Shown: positions 5,270-20,550 of the stretch, piece by piece
Layout: each line of letters opens with the position of its first letter
Position numbering within the stretch: position 1 is the first letter of the stretch
Source of the DNA: a virus
DNA length: 21,208 nucleotides
Virus record (IMG/VR): IMGVR_UViG_3300025645_007006
Coordinates: 1-21,208 of that record
Direction: 5' to 3' (one strand)
The notes under the pieces: generated by a model
The model's database searches: none
What the model saw: the letters and a program-made list of their open reading frames with translations, nothing else
Told to the model about the DNA's origin: nothing
Program-made: the position numbers and the translations under genes

Positions 5270-6124
5270 ATGAGTAAAACAAAAAAACATTGTGTAATTA
5301 GTCTTTCAGGTGGAATGGATTCAAGTACTTTACTACTTAGAGCATTAAAAGATTACGACACTTGTACCGCTATCAGCTTTGATTATGGTCAAAAACACAG
5401 AGTAGAATTAGAAAGAGCTCAACAATTAGTAGATTATGTAAATGGTAACCCAACAAGAGTATTTAACATTCGTGAAAATATGGAGGGGTATTCTGAATTA
5501 TATTCTGAAGTAAATTATCGCCAAATTAAATTAGATGGATTAGCAGATTTACTAGATTCAGCATTAGTTGAAGGTGGGGATGATGTACCAGAAGGACATT
5601 ATGAGAATGATAATATGAAAGAAACAGTTGTACCTAATAGAAATAAAATATTTGCTTCTATTACACAAGCTGTAGCATTATCAGTAGCAAATAGAACAGG
5701 AGAAACTTGTGATATTGCTTTAGGAGTACATGCTGGGGATTTCGAAGTTTATCCTGATTGCAGACAAGAGTTTAGAGATGCAGATGATAAGGCGTTTCGT
5801 GAAGGTAATTGGAATGCTGAAAAAGTAGGTTATTTCACACCCTATATTAAAGGTAATAAATTCACAATATTACAAGATGGAGAAAAATTGGTTGAGGAAC
5901 TCGGTTTATCATTCGATGAAGTATATAAAAGAACAAATACTTCTTATAAGCCTTATCCTTCGGGAAATAGTGATTATAAGTCTGCTTCTAGTGTTGAGAG
6001 GATTGAGGCTTTTATTGCTTTGGGGAGAAAAGATCCTGTCATTTATGAGGATGAAACTGGAGTGGTTGATTACGAAGTAGCAGAAGCACACGTAAAACAA
6101 ATACTTGCACAACACGGTAAGTAG
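5270..6124 (+). CDS. queC: QueC-like 7-cyano-7-deazaguanine synthase lacking zinc cysteines
   Basis: A 284-residue PP-loop ATPase. The SGGMDSS motif (13-19) and FDYGQKHRVELERA (37-50) match QueC, which converts 7-carboxy-7-deazaguanine (CDG) to 7-amido-7-deazaguanine (ADG) and then preQ0 using ATP and ammonia. Normal QueC carries a C-terminal zinc site, SCY...CGxCxxCxxR. Here the equivalent stretch reads TSYKP (224-228) and DYKSASSVER (235-244), so every cysteine is replaced while the flanking VER-EAF is kept. There is no frameshift. Either zinc is dispensable here or the enzyme has altered chemistry. The start has the AAATT-ATG context. Confidence 0.85.
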   Translation: MSKTKKHCVISLSGGMDSSTLLLRALKDYDTCTAISFDYGQKHRVELERAQQLVDYVNGNPTRVFNIRENMEGYSELYSEVNYRQIKLDGLADLLDSALVEGGDDVPEGHYENDNMKETVVPNRNKIFASITQAVALSVANRTGETCDIALGVHAGDFEVYPDCRQEFRDADDKAFREGNWNAEKVGYFTPYIKGNKFTILQDGEKLVEELGLSFDEVYKRTNTSYKPYPSGNSDYKSASSVERIEAFIALGRKDPVIYEDETGVVDYEVAEAHVKQILAQHGK

Positions 6125-6128
6125 GTTA

Positions 6129-6257
6129 TAAGAGAGAGATAGTGAAGCTGTAATTGGGAAGTAGAGAGAATTAATTAGCGAAAAAAGGTTTGTAGTAGCT
6201 AGGCGTCTCTAATTGCACCCAATCAGAAACCTTGAAAGACCCGAAATGTCTCTCTTT
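6129..6257 (+). ncRNA. Predicted pseudoknotted structured RNA
   Basis: This segment has no credible ORF but four nested or crossing complementarities. Outer stem AAGAGAGA (6130-6137) pairs with TCTCTCTT (6249-6256). ATTGGG (6153-6158) pairs with CCCAAT (6218-6223). TAGAGA (6162-6167) pairs with TCTCTA (6206-6211). AAGGTTT (6185-6191) pairs with AAACCTT (6227-6233) and crosses the previous two, giving a pseudoknot. It lies between queC and the tRNA. It does not match any RNA family I can recognise (no group I core, RNase P or tmRNA landmarks). Boundaries are approximate. Confidence 0.45.
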
Positions 6258-6264
6258 AAGTAGG

Positions 6265-6277
6265 TCCACATTGTGGA
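6265..6277 (+). other. Small hairpin between structured RNA and tRNA
   Basis: TCCAC-ATT-GTGGA forms a 5-bp stem with a 3-nt loop inside the noncoding interval upstream of the tRNA. No T-run follows it, so it is not an obvious terminator. It may be a processing or folding element. Confidence 0.3.
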
Positions 6278-6330
6278 TATATGTTCCTTCATGGGATTAA
6301 GGATTGGTCATAACCGGTCGCCTACAGTAA

Positions 6331-6402
6331 TGTCCCATGGTGTAATTGGCAGCACTACAGTTTTTGGTACTGTTAGTCTAGGTTCGAGTCCTAGTGGGAT
6401 AA
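6331..6402 (+). tRNA. tRNA-Gln (anticodon TTG)
   Basis: A complete cloverleaf. The acceptor TGTCCCA (6331-6337) pairs with TGGGATA (6395-6401), with one G-U pair. D-stem GTGT/GCAC (6340-6343, 6352-6355). Anticodon stem ACAGT/ACTGT with loop TTTTGGT (6362-6368) and anticodon TTG at 6364-6366. T-stem CTAGG/CCTAG with loop TTCGAGT (6383-6389). The discriminator is A6402. The 3' CCA is not encoded. It would read CAA codons, the glutamine codon used heavily in these AT-rich genes. Confidence 0.95.
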
Positions 6403-6424
6403 CTAAAATTAACGTAGTCGAAAA

Positions 6425-6487
6425 GGTAGGGCAGTAAATAAGTTTATAGGTAGCATTTGATGTGTGAACCCTTATTGAATCCCTACC
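6425..6487 (+). ncRNA. Predicted long-hairpin RNA downstream of tRNA-Gln
   Basis: A 7-bp closing stem GGTAGGG (6425-6431)/CCCTACC (6481-6487) encloses AATAAG (6437-6442)/CTTATT (6471-6476), then GGT/ACC and GCAT/ATGT around a TTG loop. The closing stem resembles a tRNA acceptor stem, but at 63 nt the D and T arms are not convincing. It could be a decayed or minimal tRNA, a processing element, or a regulatory leader for the small ORF at 6510. Confidence 0.4.
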
Positions 6488-6509
6488 ACTACAAAATATT
6501 AAATAAATT

Positions 6510-6671
6510 ATGAAACAACAACTACCAGATGCAAAGAAGCATCAACAAATCAGTTTTATTAAATCGGGTATTCGTATCTTAGGTTACATTTCTTTATGTT
6601 ATAGCTTGGATATCGCCGTAGGTTTACTTATATTAAGTGAAGGAATAGGAATTATAGAAGAATTAGTTTAA
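6510..6671 (+). CDS. Small membrane protein, 53 aa
   Basis: ATG at 6510 has the favoured AAATT-ATG context and follows the RNA island. The N-terminus is basic (MKQQLPDAKKHQQ), then QISFIKSGIRILGY leads into a hydrophobic stretch ending EGIGIIEELV. One or two short membrane helices. I recall similar small proteins in marine phages but know no function. Confidence 0.6.
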   Translation: MKQQLPDAKKHQQISFIKSGIRILGYISLCYSLDIAVGLLILSEGIGIIEELV

Positions 6672-6680
6672 ATTAAAATT

Positions 6681-6932
6681 ATGAAAGAAATATTACAATT
6701 TAGTGCAAATTGGTGTCAACCTTGTAAAATGTTATCACCACGAATGGAAAAACTAAAATCTGAAGGTAAAATAAATTATCGTAAGATTGATGTAGATCAA
6801 GATCAAGATTTATCTATTAAATATGGAGTAAGAAATATCCCAACTTTAATTTTACTAGAAAATGGTGAAGTTAAAAACCGAGCAACAGGTGTACAATCTG
6901 AACAACAAATAATCAACTTTTATAATGGCTAG
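6681..6932 (+). CDS. Thioredoxin-like protein
   Basis: An 83-residue minimal thioredoxin fold. The active site is WCQPC (residues 11-15; WCGPC is usual), with KIDVDQD after the second strand and the cis-proline loop NIPTL. It is shorter than bacterial thioredoxin (about 105 aa), as is common in phages. A likely role is supplying reducing equivalents, for example to ribonucleotide reductase or another redox enzyme. Its stop overlaps the next gene's start by 8 nt. Confidence 0.85.
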   Translation: MKEILQFSANWCQPCKMLSPRMEKLKSEGKINYRKIDVDQDQDLSIKYGVRNIPTLILLENGEVKNRATGVQSEQQIINFYNG

Positions 6933-7173
6933 AACATCATTAGATATAATCTTAGAAGGAGTCAGCAATGGGACAATTAGTAGTGCAGATGCCAAAATAC
7001 TACTAGAGGCAATAAATCAAAAAGGAGGCACTAATTTTGTACCTGTACCTTATAGAGAGATAAACACACCAGATTGGACTTATGATCCTTATAGACCAGG
7101 TCAACCTTGGTATACAACTACAGGAACTGATAGTACAACACCAATAACAAATAAAACTACAACAAATGGGTAA
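6925..7173 (+). CDS. Hypothetical protein with Pro/Tyr/Thr-rich tail
   Basis: An 82-residue protein. The first 30 residues look like a short helical domain (ILEGVSNGTISSADAKILLEAI). The rest is low-complexity, rich in proline, tyrosine and threonine. It overlaps the thioredoxin upstream by 8 nt and queD downstream by 8 nt. No family recognised. Confidence 0.6.
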   Translation: MARTSLDIILEGVSNGTISSADAKILLEAINQKGGTNFVPVPYREINTPDWTYDPYRPGQPWYTTTGTDSTTPITNKTTTNG

Positions 7174-7630
7174 ATTTCAATCAAGTAAAGTATTTGACGG
7201 GTTTAGTACAGTGTTCCGTCAGTGGAAAGCAGAAACAACACACTGTAGATTTGTACACGGTTATGGTATTTCATTTAAAGTATACTTTGAAGGTGATTTA
7301 GATGAAAGAAACTGGGTATGGGATTTTGGCGGTATGAAACGAGCTAAGACATTAATTGACGGTAAACAACCAAAATTATGGATGGATTATATGTTTGATC
7401 ACACAATGATTGTAGCAGAAGATGATCCATGGGTAGAAGCATTTAAACAGATGGATGAAGCAAACGTAGCCCAAGTCAGAGTAATTCCAGCTACAGGGGC
7501 AGAAAGTTTTGCTAAATATATTTTTAATAAACTTAATGAATTTGTAAAGGCTGAAACTGACCATAGAGTTAGGGTAATTAAAGTTAAATTTATGGAACAC
7601 GGAAAAAACGCTGCTTACTATGCCGAATAA
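7166..7630 (+). CDS. queD: QueD-like 6-carboxytetrahydropterin synthase
   Basis: A 154-residue member of the 6-pyruvoyl-tetrahydropterin synthase family, which turns dihydroneopterin triphosphate into 6-carboxytetrahydropterin in queuosine/7-deazaguanine synthesis. Motifs: FSTVFRQW (13-20), CRFVHGYG (27-34) with catalytic Cys27 and His31, WVWDFGGMK (50-58), DH (78-79) and PATGAESFAKYIF (108-120). HGYG replaces the classic HGH, a variant I associate with a marine bacterial and phage subfamily. It sits with queE, folE and queC on the same strand and overlaps the glycosyltransferase by 11 nt. Confidence 0.85.
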   Translation: MGKFQSSKVFDGFSTVFRQWKAETTHCRFVHGYGISFKVYFEGDLDERNWVWDFGGMKRAKTLIDGKQPKLWMDYMFDHTMIVAEDDPWVEAFKQMDEANVAQVRVIPATGAESFAKYIFNKLNEFVKAETDHRVRVIKVKFMEHGKNAAYYAE

Positions 7631-8390
7631 AAAGGTTATTGATTGTTTTTTATTTTACAATGAAGTCAAAATGTTAGAGTTTAGACTTAAGGAACATTAT
7701 GATTATGTAGACCAATTTGTAATAGTAGAATCCAATAAATCTTTTACAGGCAAAGACAAAGAGTATTTTTTCCAAGAACACATTTACCGTTTTAGAGAAT
7801 ATATAGACAAAATTACTTATGTTAAGTTGAATGAAACTGAATCCCATAAATCAGCTTGGGATTCAGAGGAGTTCCAAAGAAATTGTATAAGTAAAGGGTT
7901 AGGTAAACTAAATCTATTAGATGGAGACATTGTTTTAATTTCTGATATTGATGAAATTTTAAATGTGGATATTATTCCTGATTTAAAGTTAATTAACACT
8001 TTAGAATTACATTCTCTAGAGTATGATATGTACTATTACAACATGGAGTGTTATAAGAAAGAGGCAAGGTGGAGATTCCCTAAAGCCATATCTTATTTTC
8101 ACTTTAAAGAAAACCCTTATCCCCATAAATTAAGATTAGCGACTACTAATTTTACTAAAAAGGCGGGATGGCATTTTTCATATTTTGGTGATCCAAAAAG
8201 CATAAGTGATAAATTATCTAATTTTTCACATCAAGAGTATAATATACCTAGTATAAATGATGTTAATGTAATTACTAAAAAAATTCAAAAAAAACAGGAT
8301 TTATTTGGGAGAGATTATGCTAAGATAACTCAAATTAAAATAGAAGATAATACATTTTTACCAAAAAATTATAAATTTTTAAAACAATAG
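7620..8390 (+). CDS. Glycosyltransferase, GT17-like
   Basis: A 256-residue protein resembling the beta-1,4-N-acetylglucosaminyltransferase family (GT17): VIDCFLFYNE (6-15), FVIVESNKSFTGK (33-45), a DGDIVLISDIDEI segment with a DxD metal/sugar-nucleotide motif (109-111), and a C-terminal AGWHFSYFG. Phage members may glycosylate host surface, virion proteins or DNA. Its placement between queD and queE is notable. It starts inside queD (11-nt overlap) and ends TAGTG against the queE region. Confidence 0.75.
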   Translation: MPNKKVIDCFLFYNEVKMLEFRLKEHYDYVDQFVIVESNKSFTGKDKEYFFQEHIYRFREYIDKITYVKLNETESHKSAWDSEEFQRNCISKGLGKLNLLDGDIVLISDIDEILNVDIIPDLKLINTLELHSLEYDMYYYNMECYKKEARWRFPKAISYFHFKENPYPHKLRLATTNFTKKAGWHFSYFGDPKSISDKLSNFSHQEYNIPSINDVNVITKKIQKKQDLFGRDYAKITQIKIEDNTFLPKNYKFLKQ

Positions 8391-8416
8391 TGAATAAAAA
8401 ACCACTCAAAAAAATT

Positions 8417-9205
8417 ATGGAACACAAACAATTAAAAAGAATCGAAGATTACGATAAGAATTTACCTATCGTAGAAGTTTACACTGCAGTACAATCAGAA
8501 GGTAGTAGAGCAGGTTATCCAACAGTAGTAATTAGAACTACGGGTTGCACACACCGTTGCTATTTTGGCGAAGGAGGGTGGTGCGATTCCTGGTATACTT
8601 CAATACACCCTGAAAAAGGACAATTCAACTTTAATGATATTAAAGATGCTTATGCCAAAAACCCACACATTAAAGAGATGATGTTAACTGGGGGTTCACC
8701 AACTATGCATGGTGCCTTAGTTAACGAATTAACACATTTTGCTCATGAAAATGATATATTCATTACTATTGAAACTGAGGGATCTCATTTTCTCGCCACT
8801 GACCATCCTATTCATTTATTATCTATTAGTCCTAAGTTTAGTAATTCTATACCAGTCGTTGGGGTAGAAACACCTCAAGGTACTATTACCGACCAAAAAA
8901 TGGTTAATAGACATAATAAGCTTAGACTTAATTATGAGGCAATGAAAAACTCAATAGCATACCATTCAGACTACCATATTAAACCAGTTTGGGATGGTAA
9001 AGATAAACAAGCACTAGCTGAAATTATGGAATGTTTAGAGATTTTAGATGTACCACAAGATAAAGTATGGTTTATGCCTGCTGGAGATTCAAGAGAAGGA
9101 TTATTTAAATCGTATCCTTTAGTATTTGATTGGGTTAGAGATAATGGTTATAGAATGACTTGGAGACCACATATTATTGCTTTTGAAGATCAACGTGAAG
9201 TATAG
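8417..9205 (+). CDS. queE: QueE-like 7-carboxy-7-deazaguanine synthase (radical SAM)
   Basis: A 262-residue radical SAM enzyme that contracts the 6-carboxytetrahydropterin ring to CDG. It starts EVYTAVQSEG-SRAGYPTVVIRTTGC as in QueE. The Fe-S cluster cysteines are C44, C48 and C56 (CTHRCYFGEGGWCD), a CX3CX7C variant of the usual CX3CX2C. MLTGGSP (GGE-like SAM motif) follows at about 93. I chose ATG 8417 because it has the AAATT-ATG context; a GTG at 8390 overlapping the previous stop would add nine lysine-rich residues. Confidence 0.87.
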   Translation: MEHKQLKRIEDYDKNLPIVEVYTAVQSEGSRAGYPTVVIRTTGCTHRCYFGEGGWCDSWYTSIHPEKGQFNFNDIKDAYAKNPHIKEMMLTGGSPTMHGALVNELTHFAHENDIFITIETEGSHFLATDHPIHLLSISPKFSNSIPVVGVETPQGTITDQKMVNRHNKLRLNYEAMKNSIAYHSDYHIKPVWDGKDKQALAEIMECLEILDVPQDKVWFMPAGDSREGLFKSYPLVFDWVRDNGYRMTWRPHIIAFEDQREV

Positions 9206-9237
9206 TGGATAAGCAAGAAGCCCTTCGTATATTGGGG
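9205..9237 (+). promoter_or_regulatory. Weak candidate phage promoter P5 (GTGG-N19-TATATTGGGG)
   Basis: The TTCGTATATT decamer at 9224-9233 is identical to strong copies elsewhere and GTGG lies at the right 23-nt distance, but the end of the box is GGGG rather than TACG. It would serve folE, whose ATG is at 9329. Confidence 0.35.
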
Positions 9238-9342
9238 GAAATAGAAGAGAACATCAACGTCTGTTGTGCCATAACTATGGAACCAGACGAGGTGTTAGTT
9301 TTAATTGATAAAATAAAAAGTTATATAAATGAACAAACGTAG
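9205..9342 (+). CDS. Small ORF (GTG start) between queE and folE
   Basis: A 45-residue frame starting at GTG 9205 within the queE stop (TAGTG) and ending 14 nt inside folE. It reads VDKQEALRILGEIEENINVC and continues to KIKSYINEQT: helical, charged and leucine/isoleucine-spaced. Coding is supported only by position and composition. A promoter-like sequence lies in the same interval and could be an alternative explanation. Confidence 0.4.
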   Translation: MDKQEALRILGEIEENINVCCAITMEPDEVLVLIDKIKSYINEQT

Positions 9343-10021
9343 AAAAATCCACGAAGAGTTAGAAGTGGTACAAGAAGGGTTTGCCAATGGTGTAGCACCT
9401 GGATTCCCATTAAATGATTTACAAAAACAACACATGATTGAAGATGCAACTGAGGCCTTTGGTGCCTTTTTAACAGCATTAAAATGTGATTGGAAAAGTG
9501 ATCCAAATTCAATGGAAACTCCTAAACGTGTAGCTAAAGCATATGTCAACGATTTATGGGCCGGTAGATACACAGCAATGTCCCCAATAACTTCATTCCC
9601 ATCGGATGGTTATGATGGTATTATTATTGAACGTAATATACCATTAACTTCAATGTGTTCTCATCATCACCAAACAATAGATGGTGTTGTTCATATTGGA
9701 TACATATCAGGAGAAGATGGTCAAGTAATTGGTTTATCTAAACTAAATAGAATTGTAGAGTTATTTGGTAGAAGAGGAGCAATACAAGAACAATTAACAT
9801 CAGCTATTCATAATGCAGTAGAAAAAATTACTGAGGGTAATAAAGGAGTTATTGTAACTGTAGTAGCAGGGCATAATTGTGTAAGTTGTAGAGGTGTTAA
9901 ACATCAAGGTGCTTCAATGATTACAACTAAGGCATCAGGTGTATTTAAAGATAATACAAATTTAGCCCGTAAAGAATATTTTGATTCAATCAAAATTAAT
10001 AACGGAGGACATAATATATAA
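9329..10021 (+). CDS. folE: GTP cyclohydrolase I
   Basis: A 230-residue FolE, the first step from GTP to dihydroneopterin triphosphate, feeding QueD. Zinc and catalytic motifs are intact: CSHHH (110-114), GLSKLNRIVELFGRR (135-149) and GHNCVSCRG (181-189). C110, H113 and C184 are the expected zinc ligands by comparison with E. coli FolE (Cys110, His113, Cys181). Normal length. It closes the complete preQ0 pathway in this window. Confidence 0.95.
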   Translation: MNKRRKIHEELEVVQEGFANGVAPGFPLNDLQKQHMIEDATEAFGAFLTALKCDWKSDPNSMETPKRVAKAYVNDLWAGRYTAMSPITSFPSDGYDGIIIERNIPLTSMCSHHHQTIDGVVHIGYISGEDGQVIGLSKLNRIVELFGRRGAIQEQLTSAIHNAVEKITEGNKGVIVTVVAGHNCVSCRGVKHQGASMITTKASGVFKDNTNLARKEYFDSIKINNGGHNI

Positions 10022-10602: not shown

Positions 10603-10800
10603 ATGAATTATTGGCAAGTAGATGTAAAAATCACATTAGAAAACGAGCAAGGTAGAATACAAAAGATTACTGAAAAATATTTAGTAGAAGCAGTATCACC
10701 TACTGATGCAGAAGCTAAAGTCTTTAAAGAATTTGAAGGTGAAAGCAACTTTGAAGTAAATAAAGTAGTAAAAACAAAAATTATTAAAATAATATCTTAA
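10603..10800 (+). CDS. DUF4494-like small protein
   Basis: A 65-residue protein. The pattern WQVDVKITLENEQGRIQKIT, then EKYLVEAVSPTDAEAKV, matches the N-terminal part of DUF4494 proteins of Bacteroidetes (aromatic-x-V-K, T-E-x-YLV-A-S-TEAEA). It is shorter than the bacterial proteins. Function unknown. The start has the AAATT-ATG context; the stop overlaps the next ATG as TAATG. Confidence 0.65.
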   Translation: MNYWQVDVKITLENEQGRIQKITEKYLVEAVSPTDAEAKVFKEFEGESNFEVNKVVKTKIIKIIS

Positions 10801-11357
10801 TGAGTAATCAATTAGATTTTGGGTTTGATGATCCACAAAAGAAAAACACCGATGTGCCTTTTGTTAATGAAGTAGAAATCTTTAACAGTACGTTTGGAAA
10901 ACCAAATGCTTATGAACCAACAATACCAGAAAAAAAGGAGTGGCAATTTGTATACGACTTTGTACTTGAGGAACTCGAAGAATATAGACAAGCTTGCGAA
11001 AACGGAAACATCGTGGAAGTTTTGGATGCTTTGTGTGACCTTACTTATGTTGCCACTGGGAACGGTACTATGTTACATGGTCTTAAGGATAAGATATGGC
11101 CCGCGTATCAAGAAGTACAAGCAAGTAATATGTCAAAATCTTGCATATCTGAGGAAGAAGCCATGGAGACTATCACCCTCCGCTCTAAAGAACAAGCTGA
11201 GCCATGCCATAGTGAAAAAGTAGGTGATTATTGGATTGTATATAGAACAAGGGATAGGAAGGTAATGAAGAATATAAATTACTTTAGACCTGATTTATCA
11301 CAGTTCTTTACAACAGAAGAATTAGCTAAAAATTATCTAGCAGAAACAATTATATAA
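10800..11357 (+). CDS. MazG-like all-alpha NTP pyrophosphohydrolase
   Basis: A 185-residue protein. Residues 57-61 (EELEE) and 73-80 (EVLDALCD) form the ExxEE/ExxD metal-binding pattern of MazG/phosphoribosyl-ATP pyrophosphohydrolase-type enzymes, which hydrolyse NTPs or (p)ppGpp-like nucleotides to monophosphates. A C-terminal extension of about 65 residues (VGDYWIVYRTRDRKV and following) is unassigned. Phages use such enzymes to clean or rebalance nucleotide pools. Last gene before a terminator hairpin. Confidence 0.78.
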   Translation: MSNQLDFGFDDPQKKNTDVPFVNEVEIFNSTFGKPNAYEPTIPEKKEWQFVYDFVLEELEEYRQACENGNIVEVLDALCDLTYVATGNGTMLHGLKDKIWPAYQEVQASNMSKSCISEEEAMETITLRSKEQAEPCHSEKVGDYWIVYRTRDRKVMKNINYFRPDLSQFFTTEELAKNYLAETII

Positions 11358-11413: not shown

Positions 11414-13168
11414 ATGTATAAAAAGTGTTACAAAGGAAGAAAAATCAAAAGCAATATATGGGAGATGCATTTATGGGAATCCGATGGTACACACCAAACG
11501 ATACCATTTGAAGATATTGCTTATGTAGAAGATGAAGACAACTATACTATTAAGGGTATAAATGGTGAATCTTTAAGACCAACAACTAATTGGTTCCACT
11601 CTAAAAACCCAGATTATAGACATAAAAATACCCCCAATTTACATTTTCATGATATGAACGCCCATCAAAAATTCCTTATTGAAAGATATGGAACTAATGA
11701 TGAACCATCTACAGGACACCAGGAATTATTTTATGATATTGAGTGTGAAATTGGAGGAGCATTAACTGAAGAATATATTGCAAGTGCCCCTATGCCTATT
11801 ACTTCAATAGCATTTTGGCACAAACAATCAGATAGTTGGGGGTGTTTAGTATTAGACCCAAAAGGTAAAGTTAAAATAGACAATGACCAAACAAAGAAAG
11901 TTGTTGCATTTAAAACAGAAAGAGAATTATTAATGTTTTGGGTAGAGGTTATTCAAGATATTAGACCGGACATATTAATTGGTTACAATAGTGATTATTT
12001 TGATAACCCTTACACTTACCATAGAATTTGTAACGTATGTGGAAAGGACATTGCTGACCAAATGTCACCCCTTTATGGGATATTGGAAGAACCTGTTACT
12101 TCAAAAAAATACAGTAAATTTTTCTTTAAACAGAATATGTTTGTTGATATTAAAGGGATTGAGTCTTTAGATTACATTCGTTTACATAAAAAGTATAGTT
12201 GGAAGGATGAACCGAGTTGGAAATTAGATGCTATTGGTGAAAAATATGCTGGTATGAAGAAGATTGAATATGATGGTAATCTTAATGATTTATACGCAGA
12301 TGATATAAATAAGTTTGTTAAATATAACTTTAGGGATGTTGAGATTTTAAAACTACTGGATGAAAAATTACAATATATTGCATTGACTAAAAATATATCT
12401 CATAAAGGAAAACATAATTATAGTGAAGTATATTTTAACAGTGTAACACAAGATGGAGCAATTTCAGCTTATTTATTAAGTCAAGGCATTGTACCAAATA
12501 ATAAAGAAAGTAATCCCATGAAAAAACAGGGGTATGCTGGTGGTTATTTATTTTGTCCTACTGCTGGGTTGTATAAGTATATGTTTGATGAGGATTTAAC
12601 ATCATTGTACCCTTCTATAATTATGTCTTTAAACATAGGTAGAGAAACTTATAAGGGTCGTATTATAGATGCTGACGACCGTAATAATAGGTTAGGTCTT
12701 AATGACCTAAAAGAACGTGATCCTGAAGAAGAATTAATAGTTGAAAACCATAAGGGAATACAAGCTAGAGTTGATGTTAAGAGATTAATAAAGATGATTG
12801 ACCAAAATAACTTAACTCTTTCAGCTAATGGGTCTATGTTTACTACAGACAGACAGTCAACCCTGTCTACAGTATTACATAAGTGGTTTACTGAAAGAAA
12901 GTTATATAAAGGTAAAATGAAAGAAGCATATAAATCTGGTGATAAAGAAAAAGGAGAATATTACCATTTAATGCAATATACTATGAAGATTTTACTTAAT
13001 AGTTTGTATGGGGCTACTGCTTTACCTTCATTTAGGTATGGAATGAATTATGCTATTTTAAGTGAAGCAATTACATTAAGTGGTCACAGAATTATACAAG
13101 AATCTGCTTTATGTGCTAATAAACATATGAATAAAGTTATTAGAAACGAAGTAAAATTAGATATATAA
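11414..13168 (+). CDS. 43A: DNA polymerase B family (gp43), N-terminal part: exonuclease and palm/fingers
   Basis: A 584-residue piece of a T4-like replicative polymerase. Exo I is YDIE (107-110), Exo II IGYNSDYFDNPY (189-200), and Exo III YNFRD (304-308). Motif A is DLTSLYPS (394-401). Motif B is KILLNSLYG (525-533). It ends about 50 residues after motif B, before motif C, with a normal TAA at 13166. The rest is encoded at 13892-14884. Together they give about 914 aa, near the length of T4 gp43 (898). A functional two-subunit polymerase is likely. Confidence 0.93.
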   Translation: MYKKCYKGRKIKSNIWEMHLWESDGTHQTIPFEDIAYVEDEDNYTIKGINGESLRPTTNWFHSKNPDYRHKNTPNLHFHDMNAHQKFLIERYGTNDEPSTGHQELFYDIECEIGGALTEEYIASAPMPITSIAFWHKQSDSWGCLVLDPKGKVKIDNDQTKKVVAFKTERELLMFWVEVIQDIRPDILIGYNSDYFDNPYTYHRICNVCGKDIADQMSPLYGILEEPVTSKKYSKFFFKQNMFVDIKGIESLDYIRLHKKYSWKDEPSWKLDAIGEKYAGMKKIEYDGNLNDLYADDINKFVKYNFRDVEILKLLDEKLQYIALTKNISHKGKHNYSEVYFNSVTQDGAISAYLLSQGIVPNNKESNPMKKQGYAGGYLFCPTAGLYKYMFDEDLTSLYPSIIMSLNIGRETYKGRIIDADDRNNRLGLNDLKERDPEEELIVENHKGIQARVDVKRLIKMIDQNNLTLSANGSMFTTDRQSTLSTVLHKWFTERKLYKGKMKEAYKSGDKEKGEYYHLMQYTMKILLNSLYGATALPSFRYGMNYAILSEAITLSGHRIIQESALCANKHMNKVIRNEVKLDI

Positions 13169-13170
13169 AC

Positions 13171-13229
13171 TCGCGCAAAAATAGAGGTAGCGCGTTAAAC
13201 GCGCGTAAAACGCGCATAAATCGCATAAT
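13171..13229 (+). repeat. GC-rich degenerate repeat with alternative hairpins inside the split polymerase
   Basis: A burst of CGCG in an AT-rich genome. GCGCGT-TAA-ACGCGC (13190-13204) and GCGCGT-AAA-ACGCGC (13201-13215) are overlapping 6-bp hairpins that cannot both form. ACGCGCGTAA, ACGCGCATAA and ATCGCATAA repeat at about 10-11 nt. It may be a scar of a mobile element, a terminator or an attenuator-like switch. Confidence 0.6.
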
Positions 13230-13232
13230 AAT

Positions 13233-13496
13233 ATGACACTTAAAAAACAATCAATTAGAAGTAACCAAATAATCACAGTAGAAGGTGGAATTATCCCTAA
13301 AGAAGAACTAATTTCTAGAAGTGAGGGTTGGAGTGAAACCCAAGAAAACTTTTTTAGAAAAATGCTTAAGCAGGGTGGTACATTTAAAGTAGCAGGTATA
13401 AAATATAAAGTAGAATTAATCGAAAGAAGTGATTTAGATTCAAACGGAAACAAACCAATAACAGTACCACCATTACCAGGTGAAAGAACATTTTAA
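13233..13496 (+). CDS. Hypothetical protein inserted between polymerase halves, 87 aa
   Basis: A basic N-terminus (MTLKKQSIRSNQIITVEGG), a central WSETQENFFRKMLKQGG helix and a proline-rich end (ITVPPLPGERTF). No endonuclease motif (GIY-YIG, HNH or LAGLIDADG) is seen. It lies just after the GC-rich repeat. No family recognised. Confidence 0.6.
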   Translation: MTLKKQSIRSNQIITVEGGIIPKEELISRSEGWSETQENFFRKMLKQGGTFKVAGIKYKVELIERSDLDSNGNKPITVPPLPGERTF

Positions 13497-13508
13497 AACC
13501 AAATATAT

Positions 13509-13892
13509 ATGTTAGTAGAAGTATCAAACGGAGAATTATTAGATAAAATATCAATTTTAGAAATAAAACTATTAACTATAAAAGATAAAAATAAGTTAAT
13601 TAATATTCAGAATGAATTTGATGCTTTAAACCCTTTAGTTGTAGAATTATTTGAAAAATCCGATGGTCAACTCCAAAATCATTATCTTGAATTAGCTAAG
13701 ATTAATGGTGAACTTTGGGATATAGAAGATTGGATTAGAGATTGCGAACGTGAGAAGAGATTTGACAAAGAATTTGTAGAACTGGCTCGTTCTGTGTATA
13801 TTACCAATGATAAAAGATGTGAAGTTAAAAAATTAATTAATATTTTAACATCGTCAGGATTAGTAGAAGAAAAATCATATAAAGGATATTAA
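13509..13892 (+). CDS. DUF6165-like protein inserted between polymerase halves
   Basis: A 127-residue protein beginning MLVEVSNGELLDKISILEIK, the typical opening of DUF6165 proteins, followed by helical, charged sequence (LWDIEDWIRDCEREKRFD). I associate the family with phages and surface-sugar gene clusters; its function is unknown. It is coupled to the polymerase C-terminal gene by TAATG (stop 13890-13892, start 13892). It is not a homing endonuclease. Confidence 0.65.
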   Translation: MLVEVSNGELLDKISILEIKLLTIKDKNKLINIQNEFDALNPLVVELFEKSDGQLQNHYLELAKINGELWDIEDWIRDCEREKRFDKEFVELARSVYITNDKRCEVKKLINILTSSGLVEEKSYKGY

Positions 13893-14884
13893 TGAAATAT
13901 TTAGAAGAAACACCTTGGTTTATTTGCGATACAGAAGACAAAAATTATTGTGCTTATGTTGATACTGATTCTAATTACTTTAATGCCGAACCATTATTAC
14001 TTCACTTATACCCAAATTTTGAAGAATTTGAAGATAATAAAAAGGATGATATTTTAGAAAAAGTAGCATTAAAATACCAAGATATTATTACAGAACATTA
14101 TGATAATTTAGCCGTAGATTGTTTTAATGTTAAACAGTTTGACTGGTTTGAACAACCTCATTGGTTAGAAATGAAAACTGAATGTGTTATCCGTTCTGCT
14201 TATTTTAGAAATACAAGAAGGTATGCTCAATGGATTACAAAACAAGAGGGTATTGCTAAAGAGACACTAGATATTAAAGGTTTAGAGTTTATGAAGGCAA
14301 ATTTTCCACCTATATTAGGAGAATTTTTTAATGGGATTTTAAAACAAGTACTTAAAGGCGAAAATAAAGATATTATTATAGATCAAATAAAAGTATTTAG
14401 AAAACAAATACTTGATGGTACTATACCTTTATCTCAGTTAGGTAACCCAACATCTGTAAAGAAAATATCTAAATATTCTGGAAGGAAACCATTAGCCGGA
14501 GAAATATTTACAGAAATTATTCAAGTACCAAGTACAACCCCAGGAGTTAAAAGAATGTTAGGTGCTCCTGCATCTGTACGAGCTTCTATTAAATATAATG
14601 ATTTACTTAAATTTTGGGGTTTAGATAGAAAACATAATTTAATCACGGATGCTGATAAGATTAAATGGGTATACTTAAAAGATAACCCATATAAAATTGA
14701 AGCTATAGCATTTGTAGAACACGATATGCCTAAAAAGATAGAGGATTTTTTAGCTGTTTATGCAGACAGAAAAATGATATTTGAATCTATTTTATTAAAT
14801 AAACTAGAGGGGTTTTTTAGTGACCTTCAATGGTCATTTGATATAAACCCTTATGTAAACGCTTTAGAATCTTTTGAAATTTAA
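13892..14884 (+). CDS. 43B: DNA polymerase B family (gp43), C-terminal part: catalytic motif C and thumb
   Basis: A 330-residue piece that begins just before motif C, YVDTDS (22-27), whose two aspartates (24, 26) bind catalytic metals. It continues through the rest of the palm and the thumb (about 190-290). The C-terminus ALESFEI could be the clamp-binding peptide, as in gp43 (inference). Neither half is catalytically complete alone, since motifs A and C are on different polypeptides. The sliding clamp gene follows after 11 nt. Confidence 0.9.
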   Translation: MKYLEETPWFICDTEDKNYCAYVDTDSNYFNAEPLLLHLYPNFEEFEDNKKDDILEKVALKYQDIITEHYDNLAVDCFNVKQFDWFEQPHWLEMKTECVIRSAYFRNTRRYAQWITKQEGIAKETLDIKGLEFMKANFPPILGEFFNGILKQVLKGENKDIIIDQIKVFRKQILDGTIPLSQLGNPTSVKKISKYSGRKPLAGEIFTEIIQVPSTTPGVKRMLGAPASVRASIKYNDLLKFWGLDRKHNLITDADKIKWVYLKDNPYKIEAIAFVEHDMPKKIEDFLAVYADRKMIFESILLNKLEGFFSDLQWSFDINPYVNALESFEI

Positions 14885-14895
14885 AAATAAAAATA

Positions 14896-15633
14896 ATGGT
14901 AAATAAAAATTTATTAACTTCATTCATTTCCAAATATTACCTTAATGGTAAATTTAATTCAGTAAAATGGAGAGTTAACGATAATAAATTAGTAGTATAT
15001 GCTGGCGAATCAGGTAGGGCATGTAAGGTAGAATTAAACAAATTTGATCTGGAAGATTGTGAACTAGGTATTTTTGATACAAATAAACTTAATAAGTTAA
15101 TATCTATAACAAGTGGTGAATTGTTAATTACTACTGATAGTCTAGGAGCATTATCAAATAAACTTAGTATTGCAGATTTAGGTTTTGATGTAATATATTC
15201 TTTATGTGATCCTTTAATTATCCCAAAAATTAAAATGTATAATGACCCTGAAGTTTGGGAAATGGAATTAGAATTAAGCCCAGATGATATTTCAAATTTA
15301 ATTAAGGCAAAAAATGCTTTATCAGATTATAATTACTTTACAATCAATGCCTCAAAAGATGCTGATGGGATTTTATTAAGTGAATTTACATTTGGGGATG
15401 GTAATAATTATTCAAACAAAATACAATATAAGATCCAAGGAAGAATTGATGATGAGCTATTAAATGATCCAATTCCGTTTGATTCAGAAATATTTAAAAA
15501 TATCCTTAATTCTAACAAAGATATGATTAAAAGTTCCTTTAAATTATCTAAAAAAGGAATGTTAAAATTAGAATTTGAAAGCGAAGATTTAACTAGTATA
15601 TATTACGTAGCAAGAAATGAACAACAAAATTAA
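14896..15633 (+). CDS. 45: DNA polymerase sliding clamp (gp45-like)
   Basis: A 245-residue protein with the two-domain strand-rich pattern of the T4-type trimeric clamp. The opening NLLTSFISKYYLNGKFNSVKW and the internal IKMYNDPEVWEMELELS and SSFKLSKKGMLKLEFESEDL are typical. It encircles DNA and tethers the polymerase; in T4 it also activates late transcription. It lies directly after 43B and before a 17-nt overlapping gene. Confidence 0.82.
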   Translation: MVNKNLLTSFISKYYLNGKFNSVKWRVNDNKLVVYAGESGRACKVELNKFDLEDCELGIFDTNKLNKLISITSGELLITTDSLGALSNKLSIADLGFDVIYSLCDPLIIPKIKMYNDPEVWEMELELSPDDISNLIKAKNALSDYNYFTINASKDADGILLSEFTFGDGNNYSNKIQYKIQGRIDDELLNDPIPFDSEIFKNILNSNKDMIKSSFKLSKKGMLKLEFESEDLTSIYYVARNEQQN

Positions 15634-19164: not shown

Positions 19165-19332
19165 ATGACAAAACAAGAAATTTTTGAAATTATTGAAGCG
19201 AACTTCAATATTTTAGCAGAAGAGCATGTAGGAACCACAAAAGCAAGTCAAGGACGGGCTAGAAAGGCAGCACAAGCAATTAAGAGAGTAATTACAGATT
19301 ATAAAAAAGCATCTGTAGCAGAATCTAAATAA
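19165..19332 (+). CDS. Hc1-like histone H1-type DNA-binding protein
   Basis: A 55-residue basic helical protein. The core TTKASQGRARKAAQAIKRV and end DYKKASVAESK match the small histone-H1-like (Hc1) proteins of Bacteroidetes (KAAGxRARKA...EFRKxSV). Likely a nucleoid- or genome-binding protein for phage DNA or the host nucleoid. It lies 31 nt after groEL and is followed by a terminator. Confidence 0.75.
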   Translation: MTKQEIFEIIEANFNILAEEHVGTTKASQGRARKAAQAIKRVITDYKKASVAESK

Positions 19333-19382: not shown

Positions 19383-19652
19383 ATGGAAAAAATAACAAAA
19401 GAAGAGTATATTTTAATTGCTCGTAGAGTTCCTCCAGGGGATAAATGGAGATTAGTTGCTAATGAACCTGATGGTCCGTTACACAAATCCCTAACTGATA
19501 CATTAGAAGCATATATGACTAAAACAGGATTTAGAGGAGAATATAGATTAGCTCCATTAAAAAGTGAATTATATGCTATATCAACAACAGAAGAAGAAGT
19601 AAAACCAGAACCAATTAAACAATATTCAATTTACGGGGAATATGGAAACTAA
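19383..19652 (+). CDS. Hypothetical protein upstream of gene 44, 89 aa
   Basis: It starts at ATG 19383 directly after promoter P9. The frame is open back to a TTG at 19338, but that lies in the terminator and promoter. The protein begins MEKITKEEYILIARRVPPGD, includes LHKSLTDTLEAYMTKTGFRGEYRL, and ends in a Glu/Pro-rich tail. It overlaps gene 44 by 11 nt. No family recognised. Confidence 0.7.
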   Translation: MEKITKEEYILIARRVPPGDKWRLVANEPDGPLHKSLTDTLEAYMTKTGFRGEYRLAPLKSELYAISTTEEEVKPEPIKQYSIYGEYGN

Positions 19653-20550
19653 TACACTATTTAATGAAAAATATCGCCCAGTTTCACTTGAAAACTACGT
19701 AGGTAGTTCTAGTCTAAAAGAAACTATTTCTAAGCAATTAGAAGCCAACGATATTCAAAATTATTTATTTTATGGTCCAGCTGGAACAGGTAAGACTACC
19801 TTAGCAAAAATTTGTATTAAAAACCTTGATTGCGATTACCTTTATATTAATGCCTCAGATGAAAGAGGTATTGAAACAATTAGAGATAAAGTATCAGGAT
19901 TTGCTAGTACAATGTCATTTGAACCCATTAAAGTGGTTATTTTAGACGAAGCTGATTTTCTTACTATTCAGGCGCAAGCCTCCCTTCGTAATATCATTGA
20001 AACTTTCTCTCGTACGACAAGGTTTATTATGACGTGTAATTTTGTAGAGCGTATTATTGATCCTCTGCAATCAAGATGTCAAGTATTAAAAATAGTCCCT
20101 CCAACAAAAAAGGAAATAGCAATCCATTTAGCTGGTATTTGTGATAAGGAAAATATAAGTTATGAACCGAATGCCATTGGTAGTATTGTCAAACAATATT
20201 ATCCTGATTTGCGTAAAATGCTTAACACTATTCAAACAAGCAGCAAAACAGGAAAACTAAAAGTTGACAATTCCTTATTAATATCTACTAACTATTTGGA
20301 TGCTATTGTGGAGGAACTTAAAGGTAAATCCCCTAAATTTAATACTATTAGACAAATTATAGCAGATTCAAATGTTAATGACTTTGAAGAGGCATTTAAG
20401 TATCTTTTTGATAATGTAGAGAAATACCTCCCAGGAAAAGAAGGTACTGCAGCTATAATCATTAATGAACATCAATATAAATCTAACTTTCGTATCGACA
20501 AAGAAATAAATCTAATGTCACTAATTCAAAATTTAATTAATAATAAATAA
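19642..20550 (+). CDS. 44: Clamp loader large subunit, AAA+ ATPase (gp44-like)
   Basis: A 302-residue AAA+ protein. Walker A is GPAGTGKT (45-52), Walker B VVILDEAD (98-105), sensor 1 TCN (131-133), and the arginine-finger motif SRC (144-146). The opening EKYRP-SLENYVG is typical of RFC/gp44 clamp loaders. With gp62 it opens the gp45 clamp and loads it at primer-template junctions. Length is close to T4 gp44 (319). Confidence 0.94.
   Translation: METNTLFNEKYRPVSLENYVGSSSLKETISKQLEANDIQNYLFYGPAGTGKTTLAKICIKNLDCDYLYINASDERGIETIRDKVSGFASTMSFEPIKVVILDEADFLTIQAQASLRNIIETFSRTTRFIMTCNFVERIIDPLQSRCQVLKIVPPTKKEIAIHLAGICDKENISYEPNAIGSIVKQYYPDLRKMLNTIQTSSKTGKLKVDNSLLISTNYLDAIVEELKGKSPKFNTIRQIIADSNVNDFEEAFKYLFDNVEKYLPGKEGTAAIIINEHQYKSNFRIDKEINLMSLIQNLINNK

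Follow-up and report, generated by a model that had tools for sequence, protein, structure and literature searches.

We examined a 21,208-base record of an uncultured virus, a metagenomic contig (IMG/VR record IMGVR_UViG_3300025645_007006, positions 1 to 21,208, hereafter the window, meaning the whole stretch at its full length), in which gp43, the T4-type family B DNA polymerase, is encoded by two adjacent and co-directional genes that jointly make up one gp43. We call these genes 43A and 43B (Table 1). 43A carries the N-domain, the 3'-5' exonuclease (ExoI is D108-E110), motif A (D394LTSLYPS, approximately 12593-12616), the fingers and motif B (K525..N529SLYG, approximately 12986-13012). The remainder lies in 43B, where 23 residues precede the DTDS of motif C (YVD24TDS, approximately 13955-13972) and the thumb is complete to its end. 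The exonuclease motifs and motifs A, B and C are colinear with and homologous to those of gp43, as expected of a T4-type family B polymerase. In the window the two genes share one reading frame.

None of the conserved gp43 content is lost or doubled across 43A and 43B. Pfam matches in 43A are DNA_pol_B_exo1 (8e-16) and DNA_pol_B (5e-23), and the two halves match complementary parts of PHROG 262, which represents the whole of gp43 in 856 positions: 43A matches positions 26-569 (expectation value (E) 2e-99) and 43B matches 565-849 (E 2e-38). Compared with gp43 of phage RB69, the 43A profile covers residues 9 to approximately 621, the last few positions of which come from unsplit rows of the alignment, so that 43A itself spans approximately 9-607; the 43B profile covers 608-899. 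An AlphaFold2 model of 43B, built with 38 sequences, superposes on residues 611-899 of RB69 gp43 (Z 20.5, root mean square deviation 2.8 A over 276 residues). Placed end to end, 43A and 43B are approximately 20 residues longer at the junction than their unsplit relatives. A few residues of this surplus close 43A, and 43B opens with a head of 16-20 residues that is peculiar to the clade, M-K-(H/Y)-L-E-E-T-P-W. An earlier note on this DNA, made from its letters alone, had 43A stopping after motif B and 43B opening before YVDTDS, with conserved motifs neither doubled nor absent; its coordinates and frames proved exact, and the complementary matches to PHROG 262 bear out the rest.

Table 1. Features of the window at and around the divided polymerase gene
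Feature	Position	Strand	Length	Remarks
43A	11414..13168	+	584 aa	N-terminal part of T4-type family B DNA polymerase
Gap between 43A and 43B	13169-13891		723 nt
GC-rich leader element	13169..13232	+	64 nt	Precedes gapORF
gapORF	13233..13496	+	87 aa	Conserved, clade-wide between 43A and 43B
DUF6165 protein	13509..13892	+	127 aa	PF19662, E 1.1e-13
43B	13892..14884	+	330 aa	C-terminal polymerase part: motif C, rest of palm, thumb
MazG-type pyrophosphohydrolase	10800..11357	+		PF01503 1.3e-9, PHROG 671 9e-28; directly before 43A
Putative sliding clamp	14896..15633	+		Directly after 43B
Clamp loader	19642-20550			Gp44 lid match

The same division throughout a phage clade

Scans of IMG/VR with 43A, 43B and gapORF, an open reading frame (ORF) in the gap between them, and of 84,980 prokaryote genomes gave 178 loci that hold both halves and represent 98 distinct gap sequences. 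In the comparison with related phages that the earlier note had proposed, the identical split is present in all 98 distinct gaps and a fused gene in none. The split clade, an uncultured group of marine phages, is found across metagenomes and in contigs of metagenome-assembled genomes (MAGs) named Flavobacteriaceae, from which three of the four genome contigs with the split derive, and this suggests that the host of the clade belongs to the Flavobacteriaceae. We found no near DNA matches to the window among named phages, and the literature searched yielded no paper that treats this clade or DUF6165 in connection with phage polymerases.

Purifying selection on the two halves is strong, with a median ratio of nonsynonymous to synonymous substitution rates (dN/dS) of 0.066 for 43A and 0.047 for 43B (23-24 pairs). 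In a maximum-likelihood tree the split clade is monophyletic (support 100/100), and its sister, L312, has an unsplit polymerase of 858 amino acids with 43% identity to 43A over residues 70-576. Most simply, therefore, the break arose once in the clade, after the ancestor shared with L312. The loop at the break site is short in unsplit relatives. A minimal form of the split is present in a contig of a Flavobacteriaceae MAG (L341:2956-5202, CAJQMN010000047.1), where the stop codon of 43A, nine nucleotides and the start codon of 43B follow one another. The tail of 43A in this contig has approximately 30 residues and ends in PRPYGI, and gapORF was not found in its assembly. We also observed a C-terminal extension of 43A in four other loci (L055, L056, L070 and L074) that ends in PRPMW and resembles the L341 tail.

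The clade can be assigned to T4-type phages by its clamp and clamp loader genes and by the Gp23 capsid protein (PF07068), which is present in three of eight related contigs and absent from the window. In the contig of L035 (G009:C1:1058-2503) the match to the gp23 capsid gene contains two in-frame TAA stops, possibly reflecting an intron or a frameshift.

Contents and surroundings of the gap

The gap between 43A and 43B is an insertion hotspot. Its length in the clade has a median of 670 nucleotides and reaches 4.2 kb, far more variable than the neighboring intervals, which have medians of 0 nucleotides (mazG to 43A) and 23 nucleotides (43B to the clamp gene). The earlier note had described the gap of the window as a GC-rich repeat, an ORF without assignment and a DUF6165-like gene, that is, as holding cargo other than an endonuclease. 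This description stands, with the ORF now seen to be conserved and the repeat to be a conserved leader.

The ORF, gapORF, is present in 97 of the 98 distinct gaps and has a median dN/dS of 0.10. Searches of Pfam, PHROG and PDB sequences and a fold comparison gave no match, the model having a predicted local distance difference test (pLDDT) score of 68. The sister group has a homologue (L190:4001-4249) flanked by groEL and the clamp loader gene, in a record with an unsplit polymerase. Thus, gapORF is a gene of the replication module in its own right, which in this clade resides in the gap, and is not a piece of the polymerase. We had considered gapORF as a third polymerase fragment and rejected this both because the sister group keeps it elsewhere beside an unsplit polymerase and because its profile scores 3.5 bits against the 43A tail of megaphage LR756508, a score that shuffled tails exceed by reaching 14.

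The GC-rich element occurs as 13 distinct variants in related contigs, with a mean column identity of 90% and 44 of 75 columns invariant. Wherever the sequence can be read, it stands directly before gapORF. In L013 a cupin gene separates 43A from the element and gapORF, and the element therefore belongs to gapORF rather than to 43A. L003 and L004 lack the element, and there gapORF starts within the stop codon of 43A. The element is likely a leader or promoter of gapORF. It has no match in Rfam, and we rejected its identity with a known RNA on this ground and because single variants fold no better than shuffled sequences.

The commonest optional cargo is the DUF6165 gene, which is present in 43 of 70 distinct gaps with a median dN/dS of 0.15. 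Its product in the window belongs to the family by a score of 51.5 bits against a Pfam gathering cut-off of 27. Other gaps carry genes for a MannoseP_isomer cupin, a CTP_transf_like protein, FkbM and other methyltransferases, a DegT aminotransferase, GNAT and formyl transferase proteins, a protein with a weak match to glycosyltransferase 2, and members of several families that Pfam does not match. The variable cargo is mostly of a glycan type, comprising sugar- and surface-modification genes. Among the gap families of the clade, several of them lacking any Pfam match, we recognized no endonuclease.

The clamp protein of the window itself has weak matches; however, an orthologue (L190:691-1410) matches the processivity factor family PHROG 223 with an E of 9e-7. 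Between groEL and the clamp loader gene lies a gene for a small basic protein with a weak match to the histone H1-like protein Hc1 (19165-19332). Elsewhere, positions 5270-10021 encode QueC, a QueD-like PTPS protein, a QueE-like radical SAM protein and GTP cyclohydrolase I, a set of preQ0-type 7-deazaguanine synthesis genes that suggests modified phage DNA.

Two polypeptides and the origin of the break

We consider it very probable that this clade has as its replicative polymerase a stable family B enzyme of two subunits, ancestral to the clade and produced from one operon. The break would have occurred in the common ancestor, in a surface loop that in RB69 leads from the palm helix after the fingers (approximately residue 607) to the motif C strand (approximately 611). 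Both genes would be translated from one co-directional operon with no splicing to rejoin them, 43A supplying the exonuclease, motif A, the fingers and motif B, and 43B supplying motif C and the thumb. The two proteins are presumed to dock through the palm sheet, rebuilding the active site, and to bind the clamp encoded next door. Support for such assembly comes from Aeromonas phage 25, where the account in PMC2988022 describes gp43A and gp43B of its split polymerase co-purifying with polymerase activity. Once open, the gap would have been a tolerated insertion site in which gapORF settled early, while DUF6165 and glycan-type cargo came and went.

Two considerations weigh against a two-subunit replicase. 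Residues 1-18 of the 43B head have a pLDDT below 50 in the model, so that no docking surface is visible there. Moreover, the longest related contig is 119 kb, and a second replicase could be encoded elsewhere in the genome. In favor of it, eight related contigs of 55-119 kb, each of them partial, contain neither a recognized PolA nor a recognized Pol III alpha.

A single chain could instead be restored by intron splicing, by trans-splicing split inteins or by readthrough of the 43A stop codon. Polymerases joined by split inteins are known in Nanoarchaeum, according to the citation in PMC4104785, and the 43A and 43B ORFs of the window happen to lie in the same frame. Across the clade, however, gap lengths fall in all three phases and decrease to the nine nucleotides of L341, several gaps of 253-266 nucleotides are filled by gapORF from edge to edge, and both halves have terminal residues peculiar to the clade that would be superfluous in an exact join. 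43A and 43B of the window match no Hint or intein family at E up to 1, and the termini of all clade members, as read, show neither a HINT nor an intein sequence where 43A ends or 43B starts; the break is not that of a fractured, split-intein gene. Nor is there a group I or group II intron between the halves, as Rfam gives no intron match across the gap with its gathering cut-off, nor with the E limit relaxed to 10. The genes therefore encode two polypeptides, and we regard rejoining as very unlikely. Still less credible is an artefact of sequencing or assembly, or a decayed 43A/43B pseudogene, for which the metagenomic source of the window is all that can be said; 98 distinct gaps share the break, dN/dS is 0.05-0.07 and the catalytic motifs are all intact. 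The earlier note favored two polypeptides that must assemble, a view that we share with assembly into an active enzyme kept as a presumption. It had also named intron splicing and an assembly error as outcomes that could overturn that view, and the evidence given here disposes of both.

Outside the clade we observed three kinds of break at this same loop. In megaphage LR756508.1 (L018, 257000-270000; 4161-5141 and 8504-9439) gp43 is split, approximately 3 kb of unrelated genes separate the halves, and 43A has an intein at its motif B and 43B one at its motif C. A single-sequence scan of IMG/VR confirmed no direct relatives of its 43B, whereas an alignment-based scan gave distant ones. In L138, motif C appears to be interrupted in frame by an intein-like insert. 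We rejected one origin for all splits at the loop since LR756508 and the window clade stand apart in trees, although the approximately unbiased (AU) test is borderline (p 0.059).

The third kind is a cassette found in L247 (4818-6060), L264, L307 (4820-6060) and L308, and in the further contigs L333 and L334. By eye, the 43A tail resembles part of a Hint domain, and the cassette ORF of approximately 275 amino acids, which has a weakly Ros/MucR-like N-terminus, carries an EYDE..HF motif like that of PD-(D/E)XK homing endonucleases; Pfam finds no nuclease in this ORF. An intron was considered for the cassette and rejected, as Rfam gives no match. The 43B head ends in YTDT followed by a stop codon, and the GAC codon of motif C is separated from the ACU that begins TDS by five inserted nucleotides (ACCUA or ACGUA) that are absent in unsplit relatives. 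From these sequences we predict a ribosomal hop from the Thr codon ACC or ACG over UA to the Thr codon ACU, which would restore YTDTDS exactly (YVDTDS in L307). A hairpin ends beside the hop site (z -6.5 and -5.4), and compensatory changes keep it in two divergent lineages. The arrangement is reminiscent of T4 gene 60 (PMC5009743). The unsplit L305 is the sister of the cassette-bearing L307 (100/100), and the cassette is therefore suggested to move. The cassette, hop and intein-like breaks outside the clade, of which the window contains none, are to be taken as predictions.

These breaks bear on how the gap of the window clade arose. It may be what remains of a cassette, with a homing endonuclease or an intein, that inserted at the site of motif C, lost its endonuclease and received other genes. 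Such an origin is compatible with a two-subunit enzyme, and we rate it at somewhat less than an even chance. Endonuclease-like cassettes break the same loop in L247, L264, L307 and L308, the LR756508 split is accompanied by its two inteins, L138 has its insert, and the DNA encoding motif C is conserved and serves as a homing target. In addition, the split PolB3 of Methanobacteriales is thought to stem from erratic intein excision (PMC4104785). However, neither the gaps of the clade nor the sister L312 hold a recognized remnant of an endonuclease or intein, and the nine-nucleotide gap of L341 could also be obtained by a simple stop-and-restart mutation. In a more elaborate proposal, T4-type replicases are broken repeatedly at the loop ahead of motif C by mobile cassettes, either inteins or an endonuclease with a 5-nucleotide ribosomal hop; the clade would have lost its cassette and kept a fixed two-subunit replicase, with gapORF in the gap as a dedicated polymerase partner or assembly factor. 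This proposal seems to us improbable.

Comparison with known split genes

T4-type gp43 encoded by two adjacent genes, as in the window, has been described in Aeromonas phages 44RR2.8t and 25, where the gap occurs with or without an endonuclease. The earlier note had pointed to split gp43 genes in some T4-like phages with a homing endonuclease in the gap. Such an endonuclease is not always present, as the gap of 44RR is described in PMC2988022 as only a short untranslated spacer; in the window it holds a conserved gene and cargo. The position of the break also differs. The 44RR break falls in the fingers, ahead of motif B (43A of 498 and 43B of 391 amino acids), leaving motifs B and C together, whereas in the window the break falls after motif B and before motif C.

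Closer in position is LR756508, whose split lies at the same loop, with unrelated genes in between and a clamp-like gene soon after, as in the window. However, each of its halves contains an intein, its 43A tail is longer, and it groups with unsplit relatives (95/91), even though a shared split clade is not rejected by the AU test. Among archaea, the family B replicase of Methanothermobacter thermautotrophicus is likewise formed by two polypeptides from two genes (Kelman 1999, as cited in PMC4104785). That enzyme is an archaeal PolB3, not a phage gp43, and is likened to the window by its two-gene organization alone. The PolB of Nanoarchaeum equitans is also a family B polymerase in two parts, as cited in PMC4104785, but is trans-spliced by a split intein, of which the window clade has no signal. 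In T4, a homing endonuclease splits gene 39/60, accompanied by a 50-nucleotide translational bypass (PMC5009743, PMC2988022). The L247/L307 cassette is similar in that a replication gene is apparently split by a homing endonuclease; however, gene 39/60 encodes a topoisomerase and not a polymerase, and the window clade has neither a recognized endonuclease nor a bypass.

The window clade adds a second natural breakpoint for the T4-type replicase, one that parts motifs A and B from motif C within the palm itself, and indicates that a split of the replicase can become fixed throughout a phage lineage. It makes testable whether a replicative polymerase is reassembled from two chains cut beside the catalytic aspartates. 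It also indicates that a broken essential gene can become a carrier site for optional phage genes, and the relatives suggest that mobile elements have hit the same loop repeatedly. Against the split gp43 genes already known, what is new here is a break between motifs B and C that is fixed throughout a clade and serves as a site for cargo.
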